Shown here: positions 7,602 through 32,484 of the stretch, in pieces
How the letters are laid out: the number at the start of each line of letters is the position of its first letter
How positions within the stretch are numbered: position 1 is the first letter of the stretch
Program-made: the position numbers and the translations under genes
Notes under the pieces: generated by a model
The model's database searches: none
The model's input: the letters and a program-made list of their open reading frames with translations, nothing else
Told to the model about the DNA's origin: nothing
Assembly: GCA_020832285.1 (NCBI GenBank)
Contig: JAFIFB010000117.1
Coordinates: 1 to 32,484, forward strand
Length of the DNA: 32,484 nt
Direction of reading: 5' to 3'
DNA from: Balneolaceae bacterium
GTDB lineage: Bacteria > Bacteroidota > Rhodothermia > Balneolales > Balneolaceae

Positions 7602-7991
7602 AACGGTGAAACAAGAAAACATAATTTTACCCCGAAATTCAGATTTTTGAGGTCCTTGAAGAAGTTTCTGTAAAAAGTGGCTTTCATATTTTCGATCTGA
7701 GCAACGAACGCAAGAACATAAGAGATCGAGACTGGAGGGATTTGGCCTTATCTAAACTTATCCCTTCCCTGTCTGCCAAAGGGTAAAAACTTGCATGAGC
7801 GCAGCGGTAAAAAACACCGCAAATCACAAGTCTAAAAGTTTGTAATAAATTCAAAGTCAGTCTCTCTCTTATTCTCTACATGGTGGTCAGTGTCACTTTT
7901 CCTTCAGTTTTGTCATTTTCAACTCGAGACAGTTGAGCTTGATTCATTCTTAATCCTTTAACCAGGTCAGTGGATTTCATATCAAGTACTT
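7602..7991. repeat. ~390-bp direct repeat, copy 1
   Basis: Aligns along its whole length with 10323-10708 in the same orientation, at roughly 80-85% identity by eye, starting at AACGGTGA and ending at ATCAAGTACTT. Within it, 7780-7845 is identical in both copies over 66 nt. The right part carries the remnant of a regulator gene on the minus strand, and the identical core holds a terminator-like palindrome. Confidence 0.85.
7789..7831 (-). terminator. Terminator-like palindrome in conserved repeat core
   Basis: On the minus strand ACTTG ... GCGGT / ACCGC ... CAAGT form a broken stem followed by TTTTTACCC. It lies just downstream of the decayed regulator frame. The same structure is present, base for base, at 10510-10552 in the second repeat copy. 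Confidence 0.5.
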
Positions 7992-9913: not shown

Positions 9914-10306
9914 CTATTCATTCCTCTCCAAAAAATGCGTATTCCCTTTTACCCGGTGAAGCGTACTGGCTTTGGTAATATACTGATGGCCAAACCGGTT
10001 TTTGATTTCATCGATCGCTTTATAGCGGGCCGTATGTTCTTCCTCGTCTGAGAAAAACAGGTTCATCTGATTGGTTTTATCAATCTGATGGGTCCCCAGC
10101 ACCAGGCTTCGGATCTGGATGTCTTTCTCTGCCGATTTTTCAATCAGCGGCATCACTTTTTCAATACAAGCGCTGAACACATAATTATCGATGTTAGTAT
10201 AAGCCGAAGTGATAAACCGGAAACTGACGGCCGGAAGGTCCTTGCGGTTAAATCCAATGGCCCTGACTGGGGAATACTCGTGACCTTTGACACAAGGATA
10301 AACTAA
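9914..10306 (-). pseudogene. C-terminal fragment of a Y-family DNA polymerase (DinB-like)
   Basis: The minus-strand frame is open from the repeat edge at about 10306 to TAG 9914-9916. It reads AIGFNRKDLPAVSFRFIT, then IQIRSLVLGTHQIDKTNQMN and LFFSDEEEHTARYKAIDEIK, then NRFGHQYITKASTLHRV. The 'IRxLxxxxxxI...QxxLF' and 'AIDxIxxRFG' patterns are those of the little-finger and C-terminal part of DinB/Pol IV. The palm and fingers are absent, so the gene has lost its N-terminal two thirds. A second, diverged fragment of the same region lies at 18405-18551 on the same strand. A different family is possible, but the pattern fits well. Confidence 0.6.
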
Positions 10307-10322
10307 CTTTTTGATAGAATAT

Positions 10323-10708
10323 AACGGTGAGACAAGAAAACATAATTCTATCCCACAATTCAGATTTTTGAGGTTCTTGGAGAAGTTTCTATAAAAGTGG
10401 CTTTCATATTTTCGTTCTAAGCACCGAACGCAAGAACATAAGATACAGGGTATTGGACGGATTAGGCCCTATCTAATCTTGCCCCTTTCTTGTCTGCCGG
10501 AGGGTAAAAACTTGCATGAGCGCAGCGGTAAAAAACACCGCAAATCACAAGTCTAAAAGTTTGTAACAAATTTAAAGTCAGCCATTCTACTATTCTCTAC
10601 ATAGTGGTCAGTGTTACATTTCCATCAGGTTTTTTCAATATGCAACAGTTCCACACCGACCCATATCTGAGCGTTTAGTCAAGTCAGCAGATCTCATATC
10701 AAGTACTT
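10323..10708. repeat. ~390-bp direct repeat, copy 2
   Basis: Second copy of 7602-7991, same orientation. The region equivalent to the mobile mystery protein A remnant is more decayed here: the minus strand still reads EVLDMRSADLTKRS and VTLTTM but with several stops and shifts. The stretch 10501-10566 is identical to 7780-7845. Confidence 0.85.
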
Positions 10709-18404: not shown

Positions 18405-18551
18405 CTACCAATTCCGCTGCAAAAAATGCATATTCACTTTTACCCGGTGAAGCGCACTGGCTTTGATGATATACTGATGTCCAAAGCGATTTTTGATTTC
18501 ATCGATAGACTTGTAGCGGGTCGCATGTTCTTCCTCGTCTGAGAAAAACAG
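18405..18551 (-). pseudogene. Second C-terminal fragment of a Y-family polymerase
   Basis: On the minus strand LFFSDEEEHATRYKSIDEIK then NRFGHQYIIKASALHRV ends at TAG 18405-18407. At the DNA level it resembles 9914-10056 at roughly 85% identity by eye, and it is in the same orientation. The frame is stopped by TGA just upstream of the matching part, and the sequence beyond 18551 is different. Confidence 0.6.
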
Positions 18552-27042: not shown

Positions 27043-28299
27043 TTAATAGCGGTTCAAAAAAACGAACCCGCCTTTTTTGTTGCATGTCGCTAAATCGGGA
27101 TAGCCGTTGCCGGTGAGATCCCCGGCTGCTATCTGGGTACCCACACCAGAGTCATCATCAATCAAAACGGGAGTAAAATCGACGTTTCCGTCTGTATCCC
27201 GCTCCGGTTTGAACCCATAAATGACCGCTGGGGCATTGGGTTCGGGGTCTCCGTCTGGCCCGTGCGCCCAAAATCGTTTCCCGGTAACAATGCCTTTCTG
27301 GCCGCTGTTGTCAAGGTCAGCAAGGACCAGTGCATGAGGTTGAGAGAACCGTACACCGTAGGAATTATCATCATGGGATTCTCCCATTATGAGCTGCTTT
27401 TCTAAATGGATTTCACCGTCTGAACGAACCTGCCGGAACCAGGCAAGGCCCCAGCCGTGGGCTTCAAGCGATGTAATCACATCATTCAGTCCGTCGCCAT
27501 CCAGATCCATAGCATACATCTGAGCACCGCCGGGACCAAAATCAGCCGGATGATAGGTCCAGGGTTCACTGCTTTCGTAATGTCCCGGATTCTCCCACCA
27601 TCCCTCTTTCATCAACAGATCCGGCTGTCCGTTACCGGTGATATCACCCAGGCCCAGGCCGTGGTTATAGCGGCCCCACTCCCCTTGTTCAGAAATTTTG
27701 TTGAATGTCCAGGGATTGAACGGATTTTCCGGATCAGGGGCTGCATATCCAAGGTAGCCTTCCGTGTGAAAAATCAGTTCCGGTTTTCCGTTTCCTGTGA
27801 GGTCGGCAAAGGTCGGGGATTCGTTATCCACCCTTTCAAATATCAGGTGACGCTGCCAGTGTTCGCCGGCACCAGCACTGCCCGGATTTTCATACCACCA
27901 CGCTTCCTGGCCGGGAAACCCGACCACCAGGATATCATTTCGGCCGCTGTCATTTACATCGGCAACCGCCGTGATAAAGTGATCGGAATATTCGAGAGGA
28001 TCAAATTCAACGGGTTCATAGTAGGCATTCCGTTCTTCAAAATCAGGCCCTTCGTACCAGAAGGGACCGCAAACCACGTCCGAATTTCCATTTCCATTCA
28101 GATCCCCAATAGCTACACCCTCAGCATAAAAAGTGGTTGATAACTGGATCTTTTTGAAATTTTCGTTCCCGGGATCATCACTCCCGCAGGAGTTTATAAA
28201 AAATCCAACCATCAGAAGGCTTAGCAAAACTTTATAGTAAATACATTTCGACTTCACTTCGCTCCGCTTCGTTGCGCTCAATGTGACTTGAGGCGTCAT
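27043..28299 (-). CDS. VCBS/FG-GAP repeat lipoprotein
   Basis: 418 residues from the ATG at 28297-28299. That ATG lies inside a dispersed repeat, and the native start seems lost. The real signal peptide begins about 22 residues later (KVLLSLLMVGFFINSCGSDD) with lipobox Cys38. The body is a beta-propeller of FG-GAP/VCBS repeats: VAIGDLNGNGNSDVVCGPFW, VADVNDSGRNDILVVG, LGDITGNGQPDLLMKEGWWE, MDLDGDGLNDVITS, LADLDNSGQKGIVTG and AAGDLTGNGYPDLATC, each with the Asp-rich calcium-binding loop. Related proteins accompany PVC-type dehydrogenases. It lies 0.5 kb downstream of one on the same strand, so joint function in sugar or polyol oxidation is likely (inference). An upstream start at 28413 is possible. 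Confidence 0.75.
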   Translation of the reverse strand: MTPQVTLSATKRSEVKSKCIYYKVLLSLLMVGFFINSCGSDDPGNENFKKIQLSTTFYAEGVAIGDLNGNGNSDVVCGPFWYEGPDFEERNAYYEPVEFDPLEYSDHFITAVADVNDSGRNDILVVGFPGQEAWWYENPGSAGAGEHWQRHLIFERVDNESPTFADLTGNGKPELIFHTEGYLGYAAPDPENPFNPWTFNKISEQGEWGRYNHGLGLGDITGNGQPDLLMKEGWWENPGHYESSEPWTYHPADFGPGGAQMYAMDLDGDGLNDVITSLEAHGWGLAWFRQVRSDGEIHLEKQLIMGESHDDNSYGVRFSQPHALVLADLDNSGQKGIVTGKRFWAHGPDGDPEPNAPAVIYGFKPERDTDGNVDFTPVLIDDDSGVGTQIAAGDLTGNGYPDLATCNKKGGFVFLNRY

Positions 28300-28347
28300 G
28301 CCGGGCACTAAGAGAAGTAAAGCGACGAATGAAGTCGAAGAATTCCC
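28244..28347. repeat. REP-like palindromic element at the 5' end of the VCBS gene
   Basis: A ~100-bp element with outer arms TTCGACTTCA (28247-28256) and TGAAGTCGAA (28330-28339), and CGCTCC/GCTTCG/GCGCTC triplet runs. Elements of the type 'TTCGACT..GCTCAATGTGAC' are widely dispersed between genes in Bacteroidota. It lies immediately upstream of, and partly in frame with, the signal peptide of the VCBS lipoprotein. Confidence 0.55.
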
Positions 28348-28510
28348 ACGCTTTACAAATCCTTCCCTCAGTATTTCTGAAATATAAATGGCTGATTCGG
28401 TTAGTTCTTTCATAGTAGGAGTTACCCCGGTATTTTGGTAATAAAACTTTAAGTATTGTAATATTAAAAAGTTACGGATTTCGATAAATGAAATTCATTT
28501 GAAATATATT
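28348..28510. other. Gap between two repeats
   Basis: AT-rich DNA holding the possible upstream ATG of the VCBS frame at 28413, with GGGGTAACTCCT just before it. The related GGAGTTACCCC occurs at 28765-28775. Confidence 0.3.
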
Positions 28511-28745
28511 TTAACCGGCCTTGAATCAGTTGGCGGGAACAGGGTGTTTTCAGCGACGCGGCACCATTTCACACCGGCTCGGTCTAAGTTTACGGTCAAT
28601 GAGCGGGATGGACCATTGCTCATTTTTTGAACGCGTAAGCGAAATGGTGCCGCGTCGATGAAAAGCCCGCCGCCAACCCCGACCGCCGTCGGGGCTTGAT
28701 TTTTTGGTTCTTTTGCATCAAGGCAAAAGAACAAACAAACTTGTT
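28511..28745 (-). repeat. Structured dispersed repeat, copy A
   Basis: About 235 bp. Read on the minus strand it begins with a TTGTTCTTTTGCCTTGATGC and AAAAGAACCAAAAAATCAAG segment and ends with ACCCTGTTCCCGCCAACTGA then TTCAAGGCCGG. Both ends match copy B at 31901-32107, which is in the opposite orientation. The centre holds a perfect 16-bp inverted repeat, GACGCGGCACCATTTC at 28555-28570 and its complement at 28641-28656, with an inner AATGAGC/GCTCATT stem. A 96-codon leftward open frame (28495-28785) lies across it but looks incidental. Confidence 0.75.
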
Positions 28746-28848
28746 TGGGAAATGTTTTAAAAAATGGGGTAACTCCTTTTTTCATAGTGCCTGATATTTT
28801 GGTGAATATTACAGGTTAATCCATTGAATTGCCTCCATCAACCCGGAT

Positions 28849-31734
28849 CTATTGGCCATCTTTCATTCTATCAATTTCAGCGGTAATGATATGGCGATGG
28901 TCATGGCTGTCAATGCGATCGTGGAAGCGTTCAAGTGCAGTTACGGCTTCATCGGTTCCAATAACGGCTACACGCCGGATGGTGTATGTCAGGATATTGG
29001 GCAATTCAGTCTTTTCTGCAAGTTCAAGTACGCGGTTCATGTCCACTTCGGCCAGCGGCTCGGCAGCATACCAGAACATCAGGGGCAGATTCTGATCGCC
29101 GGCATCCTCATCTTTTTGGGAAAGCTCTTCCAGAACTTCCCATCTCCGTTCCGGGGCCACACGCTGCATCGCCGAAGCCAGATTGAGCCGGACCAGTGCC
29201 GATTCATCCGTTCGTGCCATCTCCACAAAACGGTCCAGAAGCTGATCGGAGGGGTTTGCCATATCCATCAGCAGTTGAATGGCCCAGCCCCGGATATACT
29301 CGCTGCTATGAATCAATAATTCCTGAAGGTCATTTTCAGTCACCCCTCCGGTAACATGCAGTGCCCAGAGCGCCCGAAGCTTCCGCGGTACCTCCGGATG
29401 GTTTTCCAAAATATCCTTCAGCGCATCATGAACCTCCTCATCGGGCCCGCGTTCCTGCAGTATGCGCCGGGCATGGCGTACATAAAAATCATTCTGATGA
29501 AGCTGAAGTTCAGCCAGTTCCGGGCTGGATTTCTGCGACAAGTCCACTTTCACCCACTCATCTTTCTCATGAGTGATGTTGAAAATGCGGCCCAGCGTTT
29601 TTTCGTGCACATCCGGGTTAGGGCTGTGACACTGGTTTTTGTCGTACCAGTCGATGGCGGTCACCGAACCGTCAGGGCCGATCCTGTAATTGAGCCATTG
29701 CGACCAGGAGTCGTGTGTCTTCAAAAAATCCTCTCCGTGGGAGGCTGTGTAGCCCGATCCATCCCGCCAGATATGATCGGTATTGACCCTGTATCCATGA
29801 ATGTTGTTCATGAAAATGGCGTCGCGATCCATGCCCCAGTGATCATTGCCGAGATAGAACATCGCCCCGGCATGGGCGTGGCCTCCGCCTGTTTCATCCG
29901 ACCGGAAATTTCCTGCATGGGGACCCCTGTTACCCACATAGTGCACATGATCGGCAATGGTTTTGATATCATCGAAAGTGTACGGATTGAAGTGCTCACC
30001 GGCCTGCCGATGGTACCGGGCTCCCGGAATCACATGAAACAGATGGGGAATCACACAGACGGTTGTAAAAGCGTGACCCACATCATTAAAATCGATCCCC
30101 CAGGGATTGCTGGTTCCATGAGCAACCACGTCAAATTCGTGCTGTGTCGGGTGGTAGCGCCAAATTCCGGCGTTGATGCGCTGCCGCTCGTTATCCTGGA
30201 CTCCCGGTTTGCCTACATTCGAATGAGTGAAAATCCCTTGCACACCATAGAGCCAGCCGTCTGGCCCCCAGCGAAAACTGTTGAGGGTTTCGTGAGTGTC
30301 CTGGTAACCCCAGCCATTGAGCAGTATCTCGGGATCTCCTGCGGGTTGGTCGGTATCTGCATCAATGGGAATAAACATCAGGTAAGGAGCCGCTCCGACC
30401 CAAAGGCCGCCAAAGCCCACTTCAATGCCGCTGACAAGATTCAGCCCTTCTGTAAATATCTTTCTGTTGTCAAGCTTTCCGTCACCGTTCGTATCTTCAA
30501 AGATGAGGATGCGGTCTTTCCCTTCGCCATCAGACGCGCGCTGCGGATAGGTATGTCCTTCGGCAATCCACACCCGCCCCCGATCGTCCATGGCCATCGC
30601 AATGGGCCGCACCACATCCGGTTCAGCCGCTGCCAGGCGAACCTCAAAACCCTCCGGCAGTTCCATGGCACGGGCGGCATCTTCTCCGGAAAGGCCGTCC
30701 CTGTTTCTCACGATATCCCGCACCGGCAGGATTACGATATCATCCGGCCGCAGTTCATTCACAAAGAAGGGACGCTCATCGTAAAACCGGAAATCATCAA
30801 AATTGATATGTGCCCAAATATTCCCCGGTATGTACGGGATATCAGATTCGCCGGTCTCGCTGTCGATGATCCGGATAAAGATTCTTTCTCCCAGGTACGG
30901 TTCCAGATCAACAACAACGGGCCGAAGTGTTGCATGATTATTCCCGGTAATCTGAAAAAAGACTTCCTCTGTGTCTGCCCGTACCAATTCAACCCGTGTT
31001 TCCTGTAATGCACCGCCTGAAACCATAAATGCAGCATAAGGATGTGTTACTTCAAATGATACGGATGTAAGTGTTCCGGTTGCTTCATGGTTTTCAGTGC
31101 CCCCGCTGCTTAGAAAATAGTCACCGCTATGACCAATATTCATCTCTTCACTGTGCAGAGGAGAAGGGTCCTTTTGAACGGGCTGATCTGCAAAAGCATT
31201 ACCTGAGGCGGTCCAGTCGTCGAGGGTTCCGGTTTCAAAATCGAGATTTAACGGACGGCCTTCTTTTTCGGGCAACACGCCTACAACGAGTACCTCGCCG
31301 GCAAACTCCTCAACCACCTCAAACTGTCCGGCCATTCCGGCTTCGCGGTGGCCCGGTATGGTGCAATAATATATATCATTTTCGATGGCTTCGAACTCAA
31401 TGCTGGTTGAATCTCCCGGATCGATGATCACATCACTGGCTATTCCGAGACTTTCCAGTGCGATATCGTGTGGCATCAGTTCACCGTTGATGATGGTGAT
31501 TTTCACGATTTCACCTTTTTTTGCCTGCAGAACGGGATTCAGAACGCCGTCAATCACCCCGCCGATTCCCGTATAGCCGATCATTGTTGATTGAAGCCTG
31601 TATTCGCGGTCAACATCTTCGAAGGAAACCGAAACTCCGTGTTGATCTGATGAATGACCGGAATCGTCGCTTCTGCAGCTCAGAAATGATAGAAACAACA
31701 CTGTAATCGTAAGCGCGGTTTTTGAAAGTTTCAT
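28849..31734 (-). CDS. Cupredoxin fused to PVC-type dehydrogenase, lipoprotein
   Basis: 961 residues. The lipobox is at Cys20 (FLSFLSC). Residues about 45-142 are a cupredoxin with all four type 1 copper ligands visible: His89 (MPHDI), Cys124 (YYCTIPGHR), His129 and Met134. Residues about 165-330 form a beta-sandwich opening LNLDFETGTLDDWTASGNAF, common as a leading domain in PVC-associated proteins. Residues about 345-730 are the PVC-type dehydrogenase propeller (ELPEGFEVRLAAAEPDVVRP, VWIAEGHTYPQRASDGEGKD, VGNRGPHAGNFRSDETGGGH). From about 740 HEAT-like helices run to the end. No CxxCH heme motif is found, so the C-terminal cytochrome of many relatives is absent and the cupredoxin may pass the electrons instead (inference). 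Substrate unknown, probably a sugar or sugar alcohol. Confidence 0.88.
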   Translation of the reverse strand: MKLSKTALTITVLFLSFLSCRSDDSGHSSDQHGVSVSFEDVDREYRLQSTMIGYTGIGGVIDGVLNPVLQAKKGEIVKITIINGELMPHDIALESLGIASDVIIDPGDSTSIEFEAIENDIYYCTIPGHREAGMAGQFEVVEEFAGEVLVVGVLPEKEGRPLNLDFETGTLDDWTASGNAFADQPVQKDPSPLHSEEMNIGHSGDYFLSSGGTENHEATGTLTSVSFEVTHPYAAFMVSGGALQETRVELVRADTEEVFFQITGNNHATLRPVVVDLEPYLGERIFIRIIDSETGESDIPYIPGNIWAHINFDDFRFYDERPFFVNELRPDDIVILPVRDIVRNRDGLSGEDAARAMELPEGFEVRLAAAEPDVVRPIAMAMDDRGRVWIAEGHTYPQRASDGEGKDRILIFEDTNGDGKLDNRKIFTEGLNLVSGIEVGFGGLWVGAAPYLMFIPIDADTDQPAGDPEILLNGWGYQDTHETLNSFRWGPDGWLYGVQGIFTHSNVGKPGVQDNERQRINAGIWRYHPTQHEFDVVAHGTSNPWGIDFNDVGHAFTTVCVIPHLFHVIPGARYHRQAGEHFNPYTFDDIKTIADHVHYVGNRGPHAGNFRSDETGGGHAHAGAMFYLGNDHWGMDRDAIFMNNIHGYRVNTDHIWRDGSGYTASHGEDFLKTHDSWSQWLNYRIGPDGSVTAIDWYDKNQCHSPNPDVHEKTLGRIFNITHEKDEWVKVDLSQKSSPELAELQLHQNDFYVRHARRILQERGPDEEVHDALKDILENHPEVPRKLRALWALHVTGGVTENDLQELLIHSSEYIRGWAIQLLMDMANPSDQLLDRFVEMARTDESALVRLNLASAMQRVAPERRWEVLEELSQKDEDAGDQNLPLMFWYAAEPLAEVDMNRVLELAEKTELPNILTYTIRRVAVIGTDEAVTALERFHDRIDSHDHRHIITAEIDRMKDGQ

Positions 31735-31900
31735 GGTGTGACTTCAGTTTTGTGACCGATACCGCATTATTCGTATAGTTACGTTTGTATAGAAAAATGG
31801 CATGGGTTGACCACCCTCAGGCTCTGACATTACGCATGTAATAATATTATTTAAAACAAAATATGTTATAGCTCAATGATTTAAAGCCCTAAGTAAATAT

Positions 31901-32107
31901 GTTGTTCATTTTGGCTTGATCCAAAACGAACCAAAAGATCAAGGCGGTGAATCACTTGACGGCGGGTGCTGCCGGGCGACGGAAAAATTTCAAGGCCGAT
32001 TTAGTTTCAATCCCTTCATTACATCAATTTACGGCTGATGAAATTTTTCTATACGTCACCCATCAGCCACCCTGTTCCCGCCAATTGATTCAAGGCCGGG
32101 CAAAATT
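31901..32107 (+). repeat. Structured dispersed repeat, copy B
   Basis: About 207 bp in the opposite orientation to copy A. It opens with GTTGTTCATTTTGGCTTGAT and AACCAAAAGATCAAG and closes with ACCCTGTTCCCGCCAATTGA then TTCAAGGCCGG. Its centre holds an 11-bp inverted repeat (GAAAAATTTCA at 31982-31992, complement at 32039-32049), different in sequence from the stem of copy A but in the same place. The two copies flank the cupredoxin-dehydrogenase gene. Confidence 0.7.
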
Positions 32108-32367
32108 CAATCAAAAACTTTAACTATACCAAAATTCTATGGGACAGCCCCCCTGCTCCTCCCTGAATGATCGGGGCAGGCTCTTAATATGGAGGTGAAT
32201 CTTTAGCTCGACACATAACCTTAAAATTTACACATAGACAAAACAATCGTTGTTATTCAGTCAGTTTTAATGATACAGTGTGTCAGTTAATAAGACCTGA
32301 CAGGTTTTACTCGGTATTTCATACATAATCTCAGCATGCTATATTGAAACCTGATATTTACAAAAAG
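32108..32367. other. Leader region of an IS110-like element, candidate guide RNA
   Basis: About 260 nt of non-coding DNA directly upstream of an IS110-like transposase start. In IS110-group elements this position holds the bridge RNA that pairs with donor and target DNA. I see short inverted segments (for example around CCTGACAGG near 32306-32314) but cannot define the element's left end or fold the RNA by eye. Confidence 0.3.
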
Positions 32368-32422: not shown

Positions 32423-32484
32423 ATGATACATGTAGGAATTGATTTACATTTTACAAATATGGTAAATTCAGCAATAAACGACAA
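32423..32484 (+). CDS. IS110-like transposase, 5' end only
   Basis: The frame starts MIHVGIDLHFTNMVNSAIND and runs off the window after 62 nt. A start with VGIDLH within the first ten residues is the DEDD-type opening of IS110/IS1111-family transposases, the Asp being the first catalytic residue. The strong Shine-Dalgarno sequence AAGGAGG five bases before the ATG contrasts with most genes in the window and fits foreign origin. Identification rests on only 20 residues. Confidence 0.5.
   Translation, partial: MIHVGIDLHFTNMVNSAIND

Follow-up and report, generated by a model that had tools for sequence, protein, structure and literature searches.

The locus and its two copies

The DNA analyzed here, referred to as the window, is a 32,484-nucleotide stretch of the genome of a Balneolaceae bacterium (assembly GCA_020832285.1, contig JAFIFB010000117.1, positions 1 to 32,484), and its subject is a pair of structured repeats, copies A and B, lying in inverted orientation. 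An earlier note, made from the sequence letters, had placed the pair at 28511-32107. Most of this span is filled by an ordinary gene between the copies (28849-31734, minus strand), which encodes a DUF7133 protein in Pfam, and it falls short of the limits of the elements, 28417-28779 for A and about 31824-32147 for B (Table 1). The shared ends described in the note are present: the 39-nt end of A is 92% complementary to its inverted counterpart in B, and GAACCAAAA-ATCAAG occurs at the other end of both copies, although this motif represents half of a pseudoknot and not a complete unit. A and B look like non-autonomous elements with terminal inverted repeats (TIRs), i.e., miniature inverted-repeat transposable elements (MITEs).

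The common core of A and B comprises a long hairpin, the inner stem of which differs between the copies, followed by an H-type pseudoknot, in which the loop of a hairpin pairs with bases past the stem. The folding z-scores of the cores of A and B were -7.1 and -6.2, respectively, and in neither case was the score equaled by any of 200 shuffles. The inner stems are self-complementary, as the note had it, but not over 16 bp in A and 11 bp in B: the arms of A comprise 24 nt with 96% complementarity, and those of B are interrupted by a bulge. Nor do the two stems display a compensating change, since they are actually two different inner modules; real compensatory change affects the pseudoknot and some pairs of the hairpin.

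Table 1. Positions of copies A and B and of their parts in the window.
Feature	Position (strand)	Basis or remark
Copy A, whole MITE-like element	28417..28779 (+), 363 bp	TIRs, direct repeats, element-free same-genus locus, family members
Direct repeat TTTCATAGT left of A, target duplication	28408..28416	Sequence; same-genus locus L202 without the element
Direct repeat TTTCATAGT right of A	28780..28788	9 bp; two extra T separate the TIR from the repeat
A, left TIR AGGAGTTACCCC	28417..28428 (+)	
A, right TIR (GGGGTAACTCCT on the plus strand)	28766..28777 (-)	
A, shared end (5' strand of the outer stem)	28508..28546 (+)	Inverted match to 32068-32106
A, inner hairpin	28547..28664 (+)	Arms 28547-28570/28641-28664; some pairs covary among 21 aligned copies
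Mini-palindrome CCCCGACCGCCGTCGGGG	28677..28694 (+)	Module; in some copies it stands in for the 3' outer arm
A, pseudoknot	28695..28732 (+)	Folded (RNA-orientation) strand
A, pseudoknot stem 1	28695-28700/28717-28722 (+)	
A, pseudoknot U-rich loop	28701-28706 (+)	
A, pseudoknot stem 2	28707-28716/28723-28732 (+)	
Copy B, whole element	31824..32147 (-), about 324 bp	Right end degenerate (ATGGGACAG)
B, left TIR CTGACATTACGCATGTAAT	31824..31842 (+)	17/19 match to one of the ends of the IS4-family element G000:C68:686-1891
B, pseudoknot with 11-bp stem 2	31904..31943 (-)	Folded strand
B, hairpin	31949..32091 (-)	Outer stem 31949-31969 with 32070-32091
B, inner stem	31974-31991 with 32040-32061	Internal bulge

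Mobility of the element and its family

The earlier note supposed a non-autonomous mobile family, and comparison between loci and genomes demonstrates, as far as sequence can, that the element has dispersed and is mobile. Terminal inverted repeats are present in A (AGGAGTTACCCC at both ends), in B-type copies (CTGACATTACCCATGTAAT in the copy L032, CTGACATTACGCATGTAAT in the window) and in the copies of about 480 bp residing in a distant genome, G017 (ACTGACTATCCGC). A is flanked by a 9-bp duplication, the left member of which overlaps the start codon of an FG-GAP gene (27043-28413, minus strand), and the locus L202 from the same genus lacks the element. In G017, 28 copies were examined and both ends could be located in 14; of these, 9 have direct repeats of 7-9 nt vs. 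12 of 182 mismatched left/right pairs. As judged by eye, the flanks of L032 share 7 bp, and several A-type copies are without a clear duplication.

In G158, a genome of the same genus, the two genes flanking A are neighbors without the element (DNA identity 86% and 81%), and the matched parts are 89 bp apart vs. 633 bp in the window. Approximately 372 bp of the difference is explained by A and one repeat, the junction being placed only approximately; the remainder includes the start of the FG-GAP open reading frame (ORF) and another hairpin. A hairpin-like insertion (CGACTTCACTTCGCTCC...GAATGAAGTCGAAG) was recorded at 28246-28346, in the N-terminal part of this predicted ORF, with no counterpart matched in L202.

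A search of the own genome returned 66 matches with A and 58 with B, fragments and overlaps counted, and R1, a covariance model built on the pseudoknot end, returned 40 or 41 depending on the filter. Within the genus (28 genomes, own included, some of them incomplete), R1 matched 24 genomes, with 0 to 50 copies per genome. The family falls into two subfamilies, A and B, with the outer stem and pseudoknot in common and distinct inner stems; two or more sets of outer ends are found in the A type, L037 and L038 are apparent A/B hybrids, and several hairpin sites carry small palindromes, inserted or swapped. Three A-type half copies of the own genome (L021, L022 and L025) are broken within the loop hairpin, close to the ends of contigs, and the sequence outside them is similar (CCATATGGCA), which would fit insertion of another element into the loop. 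Copies from G017, e.g., L230 and L249, display another pseudoknot-like hairpin, inverted and situated near the opposite end of the 480-bp element.

The likely parent of B is an element from the own genome (contig C68, 686-1891), which encodes a 368-aa transposase; B-type copies harbor no comparable gene. The best NCBIfam match of this protein is IS4 (NF033591; E 6.5e-36), at 124 bits, below the 152-bit cut-off, and PF01609 is matched above its cut-off (28 vs. 23 bits); on this basis it counts as an IS4-type DDE transposase. The element ends in CTGACATTACCCATATAAT and CTGATATTACCCATATAAT and is flanked on both sides by ggatgccttc, a 10-bp duplication. With up to two mismatches allowed, the B-type TIR pattern occurs in the own genome 17 times forward and 17 times reverse, whereas the reversed control gave 0 and 5 matches. 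The B type lacks an internal transposase and has a candidate parent with the same ends, which suggests that B would be transposed by an IS4-family enzyme. For A, no autonomous parent was found: its arm matched mostly other copies and weak fragments, and the ends of two other IS4-like elements are different. No parent element was found for the copies of G017 either.

The pseudoknot and its distribution

On the folded strand, the consensus of the pseudoknot reads CUUGAY-YUUUUS-GUUC(N)UUUUGn-RUCAAG-nCAAAA(N)GRAC, i.e., CUUGAY, the loop YUUUUS, stem 2, RUCAAG and the second strand of stem 2. Genome contigs were searched with a sequence pattern in which the outer strand of stem 2 was left free. At least 116 stretches were found, nearly all of them, by record title, from Bacteroidota, Balneolota and their relatives; among the matches listed were one metagenome-assembled genome labeled Chlorobiota and one labeled Patescibacteria, the labels being taken as given. 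The counts below on 142 pattern-found copies and on 109 or 78 loci derive from these stretches. At E ≤ 0.01, R1 matched 44 of 148 genomes of the phylum (41 if three genomes with a best match weaker than 1e-4 are excluded), belonging to 30 of 82 genera. No match was obtained in E. coli, the outside control, or in phage records. A phage or plasmid origin was considered and rejected, with one exact match in viral contigs, none in phage records and one plasmid.

At least three different sets of ends accompany the core, the copies of which cluster in several genomes. Near-tandem arrays of the pseudoknot were noticed in L146 (Kaistella antarctica; eight copies in runs of five and three, spaced by 355-383 bp), L129 (Mesonia hippocampi) and L114 (Chryseobacterium gregarium). 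At L082, from an uncultured Parabacteroides, five bare copies (pseudoknot and one hairpin) are situated within 7 kb, all co-oriented with the surrounding called genes. The idea of integron-like arrays was dropped, since the ORFs of two clusters look ordinary; no search for an integrase was made.

The earlier note would have been contradicted by other copies lacking a self-complementary center. The helix beside the pseudoknot was scored in one copy per locus at 109 of the 116 loci, short or N-holding flanks being excluded. A score of at least 10 was reached in 36 of 109 loci of other genomes vs. 22 of 327 shuffles, and a score of at least 12 in 19 vs. 3, so the center is not a chance feature overall. 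Still, 73 loci scored below 10 and 12 below 7, and the stem sequences vary from genome to genome. The pattern of swapped stems is, therefore, general as a tendency and not universal.

Covariation and the folded strand

Alignment A1 contained 109 sequences: 105 distinct pattern-found ones (no more than two per locus, drawn from the 142) and four from the own genome. Alignments A2 and A3 retained 76 of these, those with an 11-bp stem 2 being omitted because the aligner left the extra base unplaced. In the retained 76, all with a stem 2 of 10 bp, 89 cells were changed on both sides vs. 32 after shuffling, and none of 500 shuffles reached the observed number of paired cells, of doubly changed cells, or the covariation score. 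The last pair of stem 1, which the search pattern had left free, was T-A in 91, C-G in 49 and T-G in 2 of the 142 pattern-found copies.

A further set was built from 59 model hits, of which 46 gapless ones were kept, 23 of them distinct; the excluded hits were gapped (some of them real pseudoknots with a longer stem, e.g., L188), weak or on the opposite strand. Here 356 of 368 cells were Watson-Crick, a count leaning towards stem 2 because R1, trained on the pattern-found sequences, encodes pairing in stem 2 and none in stem 1, and pair 13-38 occurred in all four pair types. The central UUUU/AAAA pairs, part of which the search pattern had fixed, were nearly invariant in these sequences and the outer pairs varied; the pseudoknot may harbor a U.A-U triple helix. 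In the long hairpin, double change affected 7 of 42 predicted pairs among 21 A cores and 1 of 55 among 11 B cores, both from the own genome and its relatives. Since the covariation term of B (+0.19) is not favorable, its long hairpin rests on folding and not on covariation.

The G.U cells over the 16 pairs of the pseudoknot numbered 29 on the CUUGAY strand, all in stem 2, vs. 3 on the opposite strand (one in stem 2, two in stem 1), and 6 vs. 1 in the 23 model-found sequences; these counts tally sequences and not events, so kinship inflates them. The alignments demonstrate a covarying pseudoknot fold with one preferred strand. Covariation together with strand-specific wobbles indicates that the structure is probably selected on one strand, which bears out the selection on structure proposed in the earlier note.

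The opposite view, that no selection operates, gene conversion between the arms and template switching having created the inverted repeats and preserved their perfection and the copies being alike through recency, appears very unlikely. It gains from the 5' inner arm of A, seemingly rewritten from the 3' arm as compared with sister copies, from the gain and loss of mini-palindromes, and from the near absence of covariation in the long hairpin of B. However, strand-symmetric correction of the arms would not predict 29 wobbles vs. 3, the pseudoknot has been retained in distant families with several pairs changed, and the U-rich loop is conserved.

Genomic setting and possible function

At 78 loci (one row each from the 142, rows lacking a neighbor or with an ORF over the element being dropped), the folded strand ran with both flanking genes in 36 cases and against both in 15 (p 0.005), a ratio that treats loci sharing genomes as independent and depends on a simple ORF caller. 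Convergent spacers held 20 copies and divergent ones 7, whereas 27 and 34 of the element-free spacers of the same loci were convergent and divergent, respectively (Fisher p 0.012). With every row having both neighbors counted, the figures were 52:18 with vs. against and 21:7 convergent vs. divergent. The 29 copies of the own genome included 10 with the genes, 11 against, 4 convergent and 1 divergent, so their orientation is unbiased. Among 30 copies of G017 (26 with both neighbors called), 15 were convergent and 1 divergent. Divergent spacers, which would hold promoters, carry few copies in every set. Orientation bias as a general rule was considered and is weakened by the own genome with its 10:11. 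On the folded strand of A, CCCCGACCGCCGTCGGGG followed by CTTGATTTTT resembles an intrinsic terminator.

A folded DNA strand would give the same wobble asymmetry as RNA, its G.T wobbles marking it equally well, so the structure might work as single-stranded DNA, in a cruciform or at the replication fork, e.g., as a binding or transposition site, with RNA being irrelevant. REP and attC elements fold in this manner, and the copies of the own genome lack orientation bias relative to genes. Against this, a DDE transposase needs no folded strand, and TIRs with duplications of 8-10 bp fit such an enzyme; the paucity of copies in divergent spacers and the orientation bias in other genomes also speak against it, and we consider a DNA function quite unlikely.

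An independent trans-acting small RNA with its own promoter and a protein partner on the pseudoknot, for which the MITE ends are a mere vehicle, is another explanation, compatible with the wide conservation of pseudoknot sequence and structure in the phylum and with the core being found under at least three end sets and, as judged visually, with no evident ends. The number of promoter-like sites in the region is, however, near chance (10 vs. 6.9, sd 3.1), 104 of the 148 genomes are without a match at E ≤ 0.01 (the filters lose weak matches), and tens of near-copies per genome would be unusual for a trans-acting RNA, which makes this explanation unlikely.

The reading we prefer, with a probability of about one half, is that A and B are MITEs with a structured cargo selected on one strand and probably acting in RNA as a 3'-end or termination structure. 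The elements would be moved by a transposase encoded elsewhere, an IS4-family enzyme in the case of type B. The cargo would consist of the long hairpin with its exchangeable inner stem and of the H-type pseudoknot, in which the first loop is U-rich and the long stem contains a near-invariant UUUU/AAAA stretch. Selection on one strand would maintain this cargo, RNA being the presumed folded molecule, and it would most likely act within readthrough transcripts of the neighbors, where a stable 3'-end or termination structure may allow intergenic residence at little cost.

Apart from the limits on the 356/368 and 36:15 counts given above, several observations weigh against this reading. The IS4-family transposase was not found at E ≤ 1e-5 in four other genomes bearing copies (G171, G017, G068 and G095). 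At L082 the core is only about 80-90 bp long and inverted repeats were not seen, so the MITE ends of the core are not universal. Two of the five covariation measures for the 76 sequences were at the shuffle level, i.e., 4 doubly changed pairs vs. 3.6 and 13 further pair types vs. 13.2, because few pairs vary. Copy A runs against its flanking genes, the copies of the own genome are unbiased as stated, and those of G017 include 3 with the genes and 7 against. Overall, the terminator scan was at chance (5 found vs. 5.0 expected).

Relation to known systems

At the gathering score, Rfam has no match in the window. At E ≤ 5, copy A gave ten matches, all of them sub-threshold and none credible (by E value the best was the plant precursor MIR172, E 0.004, 24.8 bits against a cut-off of 70; by bits, rli34, 26.9 against 48), and the one family matched in 18 loci of other genomes was Acido-Lenti-1, at a distance of about 5 kb from the pseudoknot. 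Full-text literature searched by motifs and descriptive terms, most subscription papers lying outside the search, held no account of the element, and PMC2267715 held no match to the terms. Against Rfam and the searched literature, the mobile element is of a known kind, a MITE, and the conserved pseudoknot cargo is a new feature.

As a rule, MITEs derive from one insertion sequence (IS) and are short-lived; an ordinary MITE has little beyond its ends in common with the parent and is not retained throughout a phylum. The elements described here resemble IS4-family MITEs in the B-type TIR shared with an IS4-family element of the same genome, in having no gene inside and in the direct repeats (10 bp at the IS, 9 bp at A). 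Unlike those, they carry an unrelated structured core which recurs in distant families under different ends.

REP/BIME, ERIC and BOX elements are dispersed intergenic imperfect palindromes built of mosaic modules with a variable inner part. The likeness lies in the dispersal of intergenic imperfect palindromes and in the mosaic; the sequence is different, and the present elements have TIRs and target duplications. REP/BIME, ERIC and BOX are not known to carry an H-type pseudoknot. REP with RAYT (a Y1 transposase and a tetranucleotide-tagged palindrome of 20-40 bp) differs from the element in both sequence and size. The core of telomerase RNA contains an H-type pseudoknot with a U-rich loop 1, which the predicted U-run of loop 1 facing the UUUU/AAAA stem resembles here, with no homology claimed. 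Another MITE from the Bacteroidota, BrickBuilt of Porphyromonas gingivalis, likewise features predicted long stem-loops and is reported to have both empty and filled sites; it differs in its IS5-like TIRs and 23-nt tandem repeats, and the part of its description consulted does not mention a pseudoknot (PMC4596501).

Other features of the window

The segments 7602-7991 and 10323-10708, about 2.7 kb apart, are alike in four matched blocks (83-94%), and a second similar pair is formed by 9920-10060 and 18411-18551 (89%). Near copy B, an ORF start (MIHVGIDLHFTN...) is situated at 32423-32484; we take this ORF to resemble an IS110-type transposase.

Implications

A broader, more tentative possibility is that the core constitutes an undescribed, widespread structured RNA of Bacteroidota, made up of the pseudoknot, perhaps with the triple helix, and a stem whose sequence can be exchanged. 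It would spread in MITEs with different ends and in this way place 3'-end elements next to many genes. The element may explain many small unannotated repeats in Bacteroidota genomes. If our reading is true, it represents a mobile RNA module, i.e., a structured cargo recurring across the phylum under different transposon ends and covarying on one strand, and it would provide a tool for asking how repeats shape the transcript ends of Bacteroidota.

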